DNA of 64,000 nucleotides, taken from positions 124,001 to 188,000 of the forward strand of contig BROI01000025.1 in NCBI GenBank assembly GCA_027923505.1, in the 5' to 3' direction. How positions within the stretch are numbered: position 1 is the first letter of the stretch; each line of letters begins with the position of its first letter. Made by a program: the position numbers and the translations under genes. The notes below the pieces were generated by a model. That model ran no database searches and had not been told where the DNA came from. It worked only from the letters and a program-made list of their open reading frames with translations. This stretch comes from Mayamaea pseudoterrestris. Lineage: Eukaryota; Bacillariophyta; Bacillariophyceae; Sellaphorales; Sellaphoraceae. Positions 37,132 through 42,649 of this stretch are shown here, one piece after another.

Positions 37132-40100
37132 TTACAACCAATCCGCATCAAGCTTGGATGGATCAACCTCAAATAGGTCCATCACGGCAGTCAAGCGGGC
37201 ACGACGCTTCTCGGCGGCAGTGAGCTTCTCGATCGACCCCTTGCCGAGCGCCTCCTTGCTAACCTGCGTGTACTTGACGAGACGCTCTTCAATCGAATCT
37301 GCCATGAGAAATCTTGTCACACGGACAGGTCGTGTTTGCCCAATACGGTGTACACGATCGCGGGCTTGATTCTCGACTGCCTATGAGTAGGAATGATTAG
37401 CAAGAGAGTGGGGAGGTGAGCAGTGACTTTGTTGTCGACAAATGACGCCAAATATGAAAGACCTACTCCGTTCCACCAGCTGCGAGTTGCATCGGAGGGA
37501 CCGGTTAGAGACATCCTTGGCACGAATTGTACATACTGTAATTACTATACTTACGGGTCAACCAAGAAGACAACATTGCCCCGGGTGAGGTTAATTCCAG
37601 TCCCGCAAGCCACTAAACCAAGGAAGCAAGGATGAGTACAAAGAACGAAAGCGAGTACAATAAACTCCTCCACTGTTGCTCACTCAGCGAGCAGAGAATA
37701 AAGCGTGGCTCCCCTGTCTCAAAATCATTCATAGCATTAAAGCGCTGCTGGGTATTCATCGAGCCATCGATTCGAGTGTAGGTGTAACCAAGGTCACGAA
37801 AATCTGCGGCAATCAAGTTGAGCATTGACGTCCACTGAGAGAAAATGACACACTTTTCGTCGTCTTGCATCTCGTCAATAACGTCCAGCATAGCTTGCAT
37901 CTTGGGGCTACGGCCATGCGTTTCGAAGGCCTCTGTTGCGTTTAGTTTTGGTGGAAAACCCTTCGAAGCAACCTTGGCGGAATGTGTCTTGACTAGATCA
38001 TCAGTAGTGTAAGGTTCACGACAGAGGGGACAAACCTGAACCTCGATGTCTTGCAAGCACGTTTCGCAGAAGACGTGTTTACATTTTCGTAGGATCGTGG
38101 CGTTTTCGTGTTCAAGTTCATTGAAGCACACCGCGCATTCCACGAGCTCATCATCTGCGAAGACTCCGCGAAGATGGGCAAGCAACGAAAACCCCTCTTC
38201 TTGGGTTAGAGTCACAAGCGACTCGTTCAGCTCTACCGCTCGCTGACGATAGTCGCCCGGAATCAAGCAAAAATGGTTGCAAGCTTGTCGAATGCGCAAG
38301 ATTAGCCCTGACAAGAACGCCGAGATTTAGTAAGAGTCGTGCTACAACAAGCGATAGAATCACTGCAGCACTCACCTAAAAGCTCCATGAATCGTTTTCC
38401 TGATTTGTTTTCTTTGCGCTGTTCCTTGGACATCTCCAGATAGTCAACGAAATATTCGCGCGCAGTTTTGTACATGGCATCATAAGTCGACTTGTGGACG
38501 CTGTCAGCAGGAAACTCAATAAGGCGCAATTCAACTGGACAAGAGTGAAATTAAATCGAAAGAAGCGCGTAAGCATCGCTACAAAATGACGGACAAAAGT
38601 CGCTCGTTTACATACCTGTTTTGGGAGCGAGTTGGATGTGTTGCATGACGGCGGCCTTTGTGCGGCGCAAACAAATGAACGCCAGCACAGTACGAAGACG
38701 GAAAAGACCAATCTCGCGGCGTTCTCTGATAGGTTCCGAGACATATGCATCAAAAATATCCTTGTTGCACAGCGGCTGGATTTCCAAAAATGCCAACAAA
38801 GAAAAAATATCGTTTGGCTTGTTCAACATTATCGTTCCTAAAGCGAGGCAATGATTATGACGAGCAGGATACGGCGCGCGAGACATTAAGACACATAAGA
38901 TTGGCGCTTACCTGTCAAACAGAGTTTTCGTTCGGCGCTTAAAAGCATCATTGCTTCGAAAGCTTTTGACTCGTTGTTTTTGATGATGTGCTAGAGAGCG
39001 CGAAACAAAGGTCGAGCGTGAGATGCATGCCTAAATGTGGTTCGAATCTCTCTTTCTATGACTTACCGCTTCGTCAAGGACCAAGCGATGAAATTGAAGG
39101 TCGAAAATCCATATGTTGGTCTTGCGTCTCTTGGGTTTACTTTCACGCTGCAGTTGTTTCCGATAGTAAACGCTGTCGTCTGATTCGTCGTCCTCATCAC
39201 TGAGAGGCTGATTCATCTTCGCCTTTGGTTTCGTCGCTTTGCCCTTTATCTCCATCATCAGCTTGAGGTCGCTGCTCAGGGTTTGATAGGTACTTAAAAC
39301 AATATCGACCATGCCCTTCTTTATTAGCGACAACACTTTATGTCGATTGTTCCCATGATACACGGCAACTGAAAGGTATTTGCTGTCGTCACGATTGATA
39401 TGCTGCTTTATTTGAGACATCCAATTCGCAATGACCGACTTTGGCGCAACGATCAAGGTCGCACGTGGTGCATCGTCCGCGTCGAGCCCGTGCTCTTTGG
39501 GCAGCGGGTACGACTTAAAGTTTCCGGGAGGATTTGCGACTATAAGCGCTAAAGTTTGAAGAGTTTTGCCAAGTCCCATATCTGTGATTGGAAATGTAAA
39601 GATGACCATGAGAGCAAACTAGAGGAGCAGCGTCCAACACATGCCACTTTCATATTGAGACTCACCATCCGCCAAGATTGCGCTTCGAGTTGGTTTGGGC
39701 GTGGTATAGAGCTTGGCTTTGGTGATCTGACACTTCCAAATTTTTCGCCCTTGGAATTCAATTTCTTCAATGTATGAAGGGATTGAGCCGCGTTCTTGAT
39801 TGATGAGCCAAGCGATGCCTTGCTTTTGGAAATCATAGAATGTCAAATGTGAAAGCAGCGATGGCGTTTCATATGGCGGAAGATCATTGAAACGACTTTC
39901 ACTCTGTTTTTCGAAAAGCCTATCAATCTCTTCGCGCTGCGCTTGCCAGTCAATCGCCTGCGTATGCACGCTAGCTTGGACCGCTCGTGACGATACAGCG
40001 TCAGGGGCATTGATACCGAGAGTAGTACTAATAGACCCTACAGGTGCCGTGTCATCCGTTGTAGCACGAAAGTTGCCTTGTAGATGCGCTGAAAGTACAT

Positions 40101-42649
40101 TGCGAAAATGGGTAATCTGTGCCGGCGAGCAAGCGTATTCGACCTTTATTGTCGTGCCCGTCGAGTAGTTATTTCGGCCCTTTGCAACTCCTTTAGCTTC
40201 GATGGAGGCAATGCATGTAATTGAGTCGTAGTGATCCATGATTCTTGCGAGCATGCTTCCTTGTGTTTTCCAAACAAAGCCAATTGTCGTGCCGGTCAAA
40301 GTGTCGACGCGAATGGCATGCTTGCCGTAGTGATACTTGCGCTCCCGCACAAGATTCACTATGTCACCAACACTGACAAAGTCAGAACTCTTTTTATCGG
40401 TGTAGTTGACAAGAACGAGCGTGCTGTACCCTAAAATTTGGGTATTAGTGTCCGAAATTTCTTCGTCGTTGTCATCGACGGTGAGGACAAGTGGCAATGA
40501 CGACAATGCTGCTGCCCCGAGGGATGCGCTGGTCGCTGCATTCATGTCAACTGCCTTAATGCTGGCTGCTTTCGAACTCACTTCTACTGCTTGAAACATG
40601 CCACCGAGGCAAGCAGTCAAAATGTCTATGTAACGGCTCACGTGATTCGCCGTCGTAGCAAATCGCACCATCATGGGAACTACGTTAAATTGCCGCTCAC
40701 CGGAAAGTGTCGCCACACAATGAATCAGCTCGTAGTTGTCCATGATCTTTGCCAGCTTTTTGGCGTGTTCAAGCTCAATGTGCCCAATCGTCGCGCCACT
40801 TGCCGTCTGAACACGAATAGCATTCGTATCGTATTCGTTCTCTTTTTCGCGGACAAGCGCAAGCTGATCGCTAACGTTTACTTGTGCATATCCAGAGTGA
40901 AATAGTGTACCGACCAAAGACAGAGTGCATGAGCCAATCGTTTGAAGCTCGTCATCCACCGACTTATCCGGTGCCGGGGGCTTTTCGGACGAGCGTTGTG
41001 CAACAGGTAGCTGCACCTGCGGTACCGGAGGCTTGGGCGCAGCTTTTTTGGCGTAAATTTCCGTACCTGGCGCTGGCTGGAAGTTGCAGCCAAGCATTTG
41101 AGTAAGCGAACCATAAGATTCTTCCGTGGTGGGCTGTATGTTCGTGTTGCTGCAGTCATACTTGTAGGATACTAAGATGGGAATGTCGCTCGCATGTGGA
41201 CCGATGGTAATCGCTTCGACCAAAATGTGCGCATTACTGCTAAGAAACTCGGAGAACTGGGTGTCCGTCTCGCGAATGAGGCCAAGTTTGATGCCTTGGT
41301 TATCCAATACCCCTATTGCATTTGGAATGTGCACCTGGCAGAGAAAAGATGTATTGACTGTGAGTGCATGTTATTCAACTAGCAAGGTCGAGCGCGCACT
41401 GTTCACGGCAATGGACGTACATTATGAGTGTCTTGCACAAGAGTGACCGTGTCTCCTTCACTCGTGTTACCCGCGCTGTACATGACTCCCATAATGGTGA
41501 AGTCGCTCCAGCCCAAGATAATCATGGACGAGGGTCGCGTCGCAGTACCCGATACAACCTTTGGCAACGACGGATACGAATTCGTCGGCTCCATTCGACG
41601 AGCAAGGCTGATTGATGTAGATGATATCTTCTTGTCGCTTCCATTGTACGGCGCATTTATGGAGCGAGGCTTGGCTTCGTCTGGTTCACAATCTGAATCG
41701 CAGGACGAAAGTGCTGGTGACTCGCTCGAGCGCTTGCGTGCCGACGGCTTGATCGAAGGCGTATCCTCCCACCAAGCGTCTTCATCTTGAACCAATGGAC
41801 TAGTCATCTCTTTCGGCTTGGCTACTGCCATTGCCATGAGCTGTGCTCGCTGCTGATGGTTCATAAAGGCGCTCGTGGTGCGTTGGTTCATGATGCGGCG
41901 CGCCGACGGCTTTGTTAAAGGCGTATCCTCCCACCAGGCGTCCTCCTCCTGATCTAATGTGCTAGTCGTCTTTTTCGGCTTGGAAACTGCAATTTCCATG
42001 AGCTGTGCTCGTTGATGCTGGCTGGTAAAGGCACTCGTGGTGCGTTGGTTCACGGTGCGGGATGATGGCGGCGAATCCACATTTGTAGGCTCAAAGATTC
42101 GTCCCAAGCGATTCTGCAACTGCAATTGAGCAGCTCGAACTTGATTCGCATCTACTGTACCAGTACTCTTGAGCAAATAGGTGATCTGAATGGTGCAATG
42201 CGTGTTGCTAAGCGACGTTTTAAAGAGGACGACTGCCGTCGTTTGAATCTCGTCTTGCTGGAGAACAAACGCAAGATTTGCTGCATGAACTGAATCATAC
42301 TTTCCAAGCAGAAAGTCATCTTCGTCTCCAATATATACGCTCGACTGGAGAATAATAATAACATATTGGATTGAGTCGATCCGGTTGCTGTATCTTTACA
42401 CTTGTCGCTTGCATTTTCACTTACATCATTTCCGGCGCCGCGAATGAGATAAACAACATCTCCTTCATTCGGCAACTCAGCATCGCTCCCCAGAGTCATT
42501 ACCATGAGTCCTGTGCCAAGTAGACGACTCGGAAGATCCGGAGTAATGGTGCGGGAGTTGTTGGTGCGAAAGTTTGTCGTCGAGTCAAACATTGCCATGG
42601 GAGCGTCATTCGGCGGCGCCGTGACGCGCTCTTTCTCCCCTCTCGGCAT
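37132..42649 (-). CDS. RAD5/HLTF-like SNF2 ATPase with four HIRAN-like modules and RING finger, 11 exons
   Basis: Exons: 42649-42425, 42344-41421, 41334-39666, 39581-39067, 38990-38912, 38837-38616, 38534-38376, 38307-37684, 37612-37555, 37479-37467 (13 nt), 37380-37132. Phases agree and total 1578 aa. HIRAN-like modules are at about residues 25-150, 350-445, 513-611 and 683-788. The SNF2 domain starts near 878 ([20 protein letters not shown]), with [16 protein letters not shown] and [18 protein letters not shown]3HC4 RING (CAVC ... CKHVFCETC ... CPLC) sits between ATPase lobes at about 1320-1362, and the second lobe ends [24 protein letters not shown]/Rad5 proteins reverse replication forks and ubiquitinate PCNA; one HIRAN binds 3' DNA ends. 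Confidence 0.85.

Follow-up and report, generated by a model that had tools for sequence, protein, structure and literature searches.

Human HLTF and yeast Rad5, enzymes of DNA-damage tolerance and the two family members considered here that have solved structures, each combine one DNA-sensing HIRAN domain with an SNF2 motor and a RING finger, which in HLTF is of the C3HC4 type. Passages of PMC4666394 describe how DNA bases are stacked between Y72 and Y93 in the HLTF HIRAN; they also report that the N90/N91 double change alone fully impaired the domain and that the isolated HIRAN, supplied in trans, restores fork reversal to HIRAN-deleted HLTF. The HIRANs of HLTF and yeast Rad5 differ in their requirement for a 3' end, according to passages of PMC7804152: those of Rad5 bind single-stranded DNA without needing a 3'-hydroxyl, keep two of the ten HLTF contact residues, and also bind PCNA. 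We analyzed a stretch of 64,000 nucleotides (the window) from the diatom Mayamaea pseudoterrestris (Bacillariophyceae, Sellaphorales; GenBank assembly GCA_027923505.1, contig BROI01000025.1, positions 124,001 to 188,000 of the forward strand), which contains a RAD5/HLTF-type gene with three clear HIRAN modules and a fourth, diverged one. Both the family and its HIRAN domain had been described before; what is new is an array with two types of module, together with a HIRAN-only relative.

Gene model and domain order

The gene lies on the minus strand (Table 1). In our spliced model its 11 exons form one open reading frame of 1578 amino acids and are separated by ten introns, all GT-AG and 68-86 bases each. 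Pfam finds HIRAN, SNF2, C3HC4 RING and Helicase_C in that order, with the HIRANs ahead of SNF2 and the RING between the two SNF2 helicase lobes, which is the architecture of the RAD5/HLTF family. The original prediction, a RAD5/HLTF-like protein with four HIRAN-like modules, was correct in family, coordinates, strand and domain order. The NCBI protein MPSEU_000971300 (P0001) equals our model through exon 8. It then runs into intron 8 (window 37613-37683, minus strand), where an early stop removes the C-terminal helicase motifs and the end of lobe 2.

HIRAN modules

Blocks 2, 3 and 4 of the spliced protein (H2, H3 and H4) exceed the gathering cut-off of the Pfam HIRAN profile (PF08797, 24.7 bits), with the scores given in Table 1. 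More than one block scores as HIRAN, and the predicted multiplication of the domain is supported by three clear modules and one diverged. Compared with the PDB by sequence, block 3 matches the HLTF HIRAN with an E-value of 2.8e-9. We modeled H3-H4 together with AlphaFold2 (9-sequence alignment, mean predicted local distance difference test (pLDDT) 68.1, predicted template modeling score (pTM) 0.40), with a pLDDT of about 85-93 over most of the block 3 core, and H4 alone (11-sequence alignment, mean pLDDT 74.9, pTM 0.67). The top Foldseek matches of both models are HLTF HIRAN crystal structures (E 1.6e-8 for H3-H4 and 2.0e-6 for H4 alone), and the match to K. lactis Rad5 (6l8n/6l8o) is less good (E 1.7e-4 to 7.5e-4). 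On the basis of these models, H3 and H4 are predicted to have the HIRAN fold.

Block 1 (H1) is more diverged. It gives no match to the Pfam HIRAN profile at its cut-off, and by that scan the count is three. Against a test profile built from 11 HIRAN modules with block 1 excluded, the block when cut out scores 17.9 bits, compared with 56-108 bits for six other Mayamaea modules, each left out in turn. None of 5000 shuffles of block 1 reaches its score (4139 produced a score, with a maximum of 9.0 bits). The same profile finds exactly four domains in the whole protein, block 1 at 10.5 bits, and gives 13.8 bits for residues 1-345 searched with no preset borders, where the best of 2000 shuffles has 6.1. 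The alignment made with hhalign covers 119 columns of block 1 with a probability of 82.6%, and 200 shuffles remain at or below 1.15%. In the unspliced sequence, detection of block 1 is limited to its exon-2 half, at 6.7 bits; the best match outside the gene's own frames among 479 unspliced open reading frames of the window is little below this, at 4.9 bits. A chance match is ruled out by the shuffles, the hhalign result and this window background. The similarity is weak but more than chance, and at the level of sequence it points to a remote HIRAN relationship. Thus four HIRAN-like blocks can be counted as first described, three of them clear and one found by the block-1-free profile and not by Pfam; of the motif proposed to be shared by all four, the AI-x-V element is not preserved in block 1.

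Related genes

When the Mayamaea genome was searched exon by exon with PF08797, seven matches fell at three loci (the present gene and two others, on contigs C6 and C24), and no single-HIRAN RAD5 was found in this search. The C6 paralog, MPSEU_000401200 (P0002), encodes three HIRANs, SNF2 and RING. It is 57% identical to the present protein over the SNF2 part and has an A-B-B array (module types are described below) with the same first-module intron, but no block 1 was found in it. Its NCBI model likewise seems to terminate early. The C24 locus (L009 5010-6521, minus strand) consists of two exons that encode an A-B HIRAN pair and then a stop, and we found no SNF2 match near the pair. The gene next to it appears WD40-like by eye only.

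Homologs from other organisms were collected with searches from the SNF2 side, and two lists were kept, the best 120 of 2063 matches and the best 120 of 4066. The 118 other RAD5-like proteins in one of these lists include 114 with one HIRAN and 4 with none, according to a local profile. Among the 231 other RAD5-like proteins in both lists, an HLTF-type profile finds one HIRAN in 137, none in 93 and two in 1; with the module profile these numbers are 135, 94 and 2. The tandem cases are two fragments from jgi and ena records: P0148, called by either profile, and P0186, called by the module profile only. Like the present gene, they have an A-B tandem directly before SNF2, but only two modules are visible, the first one cut, and their 5' ends are missing; P0148 starts just behind the A-type intron site. 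Proteins from the diatoms Attheya (P0003) and Rhizosolenia (P0004) are 36-38% identical over 73-83% of the SNF2 part and also have HIRAN before SNF2-RING, but carry one HIRAN each. Among titles and abstract beginnings in an open-licence library we found no multi-HIRAN RAD5 or HLTF, and none of the library's papers contains a phrase for tandem, two, three, multiple or repeated HIRAN.

Two further proteins were considered as HIRAN carriers and not counted: P0006, with an N-terminus that looks HIRAN-like by eye (4.1 bits only), and P0127 (3.0 bits only). A homolog search with residues 1-860 returned just MPSEU_000971300 itself (1 of 7987 candidates) and missed the three-HIRAN paralog as well, since the two sequences have few exact words in common. 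Some RAD5-like proteins have other additions, including DnaJ in P0126 and P0127 (Amphora coffeaeformis), zf-PARP in P0007 and a CW zinc finger in P0125.

History of the array

In a tree of all 25 module rows, block 1 groups with the A-type modules (89/85) on a very long branch, which at 3.81 is the longest of the nine Mayamaea modules. Without four long rows, block 1 among them, the 12 array modules form one clade (89/86) that contains an A clade (85/74) and a B clade (99/97), of which only B is starred. A two-residue insertion between strands 1 and 2 is common to the B modules and absent from the A modules and the aligned single HIRANs (the partial rows P148_a and P186_a are uninformative in this comparison). 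In a tree of SNF2 lobe 1, the present gene (C25) has C6 as its sister (96/93), within a clade that also takes in P0148 and P0186 (92/95). The modules fall into A and B types, and it follows from the module clades together with the sisterhood in lobe 1 that the A-B pair predates the Mayamaea gene duplication.

We suggest that the single N-terminal HIRAN of a RAD5/HLTF-type gene expanded to an array within a diatom lineage. The A-B pair would have come first, and B would then have doubled. A may have doubled too, in the present gene only of the three Mayamaea genes, to give A'(H1)-A(H2)-B(H3)-B(H4).

The introns agree with the module types. Blocks 1 and 2 span introns, as had been noted from the sequence, and blocks 3 and 4 are uninterrupted. 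The first modules of C6 and C24 have an intron after the identical codon as block 2, in phase 0, and the block 1 intron, also in phase 0, is one codon further on. By a rough estimate (three codon positions, one phase, 130 codons), the chance of this agreement for block 1 is about 1/130. The position of intron 2 inside block 2, and the codon usage of exons 1 and 2, which agrees with that of exons 3-11 in the coding frame and in no other, indicate that both exons are probably part of the gene. We consider it very improbable that the gene model is in error, with exon 1 or block 1 outside a true protein of three HIRANs. Block 1 does lack a Pfam match and scores just 6.7 bits unspliced, but the NCBI model carries identical exons 1-3, codon usage in exon 1 prefers the coding frame (0.139 bits per codon, with the remaining five frames negative), intron 1 is at most one codon from the A-type intron site, and block 1 is matched by both the profile and hhalign.

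DNA-end pocket and predicted function

We compared the modules at six pocket residues of HLTF (R71, Y72, N90, N91, Y93 and H110). H1 to H4 keep 1, 2, 3 and 1 of these, so each block has at most half of the set that HLTF itself carries, and none has an HLTF-type pocket. The C6 modules keep 1, 4 and 4 of six, differing from the present gene in both B modules, and the C24 modules keep 2 and 0. The pocket is complete in Attheya, and five residues are kept in Rhizosolenia, five in P148_b and three in P186_b. N90 is missing in all nine Mayamaea modules, although several single-HIRAN relatives vary at this position too, and R71 is present in two of the nine, neither from the present gene. The net charge of H1 to H4 is -8, -11, -5 and +3, compared with -4, +3 and +1 in C6, +2 and +10 in C24, and +1, +4 and +5 in the single HIRANs of Attheya, Rhizosolenia and P0005.

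Because half or more of the pocket residues are lost in each module, holding several DNA ends is probably not what the array does. Several HIRANs could each grip a 3' DNA end, with one protein bridging at least two ends at a reversed fork or a break, and in line with this three modules exceed the Pfam cut-off, two are modeled as HIRAN folds, and two modules of C6 keep four pocket residues. Variation of N90 in several single-HIRAN proteins also leaves room for such binding. Even so we regard it as improbable, since N90, of the N90/N91 pair described as needed in HLTF (PMC4666394), is missing throughout the Mayamaea modules, R71 does not occur in the present gene, and H1-H3 are net acidic. It had been proposed that the array binds several DNA ends or new partners; pocket counts and charge lend little support to the former, and new partners are the better half of that proposal.

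Our favored reading, to which we give about an even chance, is that HIRAN was turned into a docking-and-contact array in this RAD5/HLTF-family protein, an SNF2 translocase that is also a RING ubiquitin ligase. From the computed features (gene, domains, module types, an A-B pair older than the duplication, and pocket loss) we infer a fork role and a function for each module. The SNF2 and RING parts would act as in RAD5/HLTF, in replication-stress tolerance at stalled forks. H3, with H4, may contact DNA in a RAD5-like manner that is not strictly 3'-hydroxyl-dependent, and the acidic A-type H1 and H2 may have lost DNA binding and now be protein-docking folds. The Rad5 HIRAN is described as independent of the HLTF pocket (passages of PMC7804152), so loss of this pocket need not abolish DNA or fork function.

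Several points weigh against a docking-and-contact array. Net charge is a crude proxy, and the A modules of the paralogs have just -4 (C6_H1) and +2 (C24), so acidity is no general mark of A modules. Neither the A clade nor the joint array clade is starred. The SNF2 motor keeps its main motifs: the spliced model contains DDMGLGKT (which we take to be Walker A), DEAH and [11 protein letters not shown]. What we take to be motif III reads TGTI and not TGTP as in C6 (window ~38830, minus strand, residue 1140), a position with P in 137 of 138 homologs. The part from SNF2 to the C-terminus deviates at 20 of about 118 columns kept in at least 93% of the 138 homologs, many of these deviations being common to C6. 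Given the change from P to I in motif III and the deviating columns, the motor could be weakened.

The pocket losses themselves would be the same if unused copies were decaying, and such decay competes seriously with the docking-and-contact array as an explanation. H3 alone would then work, and the extra modules would be tolerated duplicates losing function, with H1 the most advanced. This fits the unevenness of pocket loss from H1 to H4, the long branch of H1 and its missing Pfam match, and the paralog C6, which could take the canonical role with four pocket residues in each B module. However, all four modules are in frame and stop-free, and the A and B types persist in all three Mayamaea genes as well as in P0148 and P0186. 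We therefore hold decay to be possible but somewhat unlikely.

A division of labor between the three loci is a further, rather unlikely reading. In this modular HIRAN toolkit C6 would sense ends, the present gene would dock, and the C24 pair would act in trans as a subunit or a competitor. Action of the C24 pair in trans is biochemically possible given the rescue by the isolated HLTF HIRAN (PMC4666394, in the passages cited above).

The array with its graded pocket decay, the less decayed paralog and the HIRAN-only gene offer natural variants with which end recognition could be told apart from docking. The array also suggests that, in diatoms, the N-terminal part of RAD5 is plastic in evolution.

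Feature coordinates and linker repeat

Table 1. Features of the RAD5/HLTF-type gene, in window positions
Feature	Position	Strand	Evidence or remark
RAD5/HLTF-type gene, 11 exons, 1578 amino acids	37132..42649	-	Spliced model; equals MPSEU_000971300 through exon 8
Block 1 (H1, residues 37-166), diverged A-type HIRAN module, intron 1 inside	42072..42541	-	Profile, hhalign, intron site
Intron 1 (phase 0), interrupting block 1	42345..42424	-	GTAAGT...CCAG; one codon away from the position of the block 2 intron
Linker with 162-nucleotide tandem repeat, two copies, 83% identical	41736..42059	-	Encodes [19 protein letters not shown] units
Block 2 (H2, residues 347-475), A-type HIRAN, intron 2 inside	41059..41534	-	Pfam 34.8 bits, spliced sequence
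Intron 2 (phase 0), interrupting block 2	41335..41420	-	Same codon as introns of C6_H1 and C24_HA
Block 3 (H3, residues 511-637), B-type HIRAN, best preserved of the four	40573..40953	-	Pfam 61.3 bits
Block 4 (H4, residues 678-812), B-type HIRAN adjoining SNF2	40048..40452	-	Pfam 33.5 bits
SNF2 ATPase lobe 1 plus the region after it, exons 3-7	38376..39846 (outer borders approximate)	-	Pfam SNF2-rel_dom E 4.7e-20, exon 4 frame
C3HC4 RING finger, between SNF2 lobes	38018..38140	-	Pfam zf-RING_5 34.5 bits, above cut-off
Helicase_C lobe, exons 8-11	37132..37903	-	Pfam Helicase_C 38.3 bits, exon 8 frame; [15 protein letters not shown] in spliced model

The linker unit of the EDAWWEDTP type is possibly a short binding motif. 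The two repeat copies are arranged head-to-tail and the unit is acidic-aromatic (EDAWWEDTP); the N-terminus of the C6 paralog has DDDFCVNTP.

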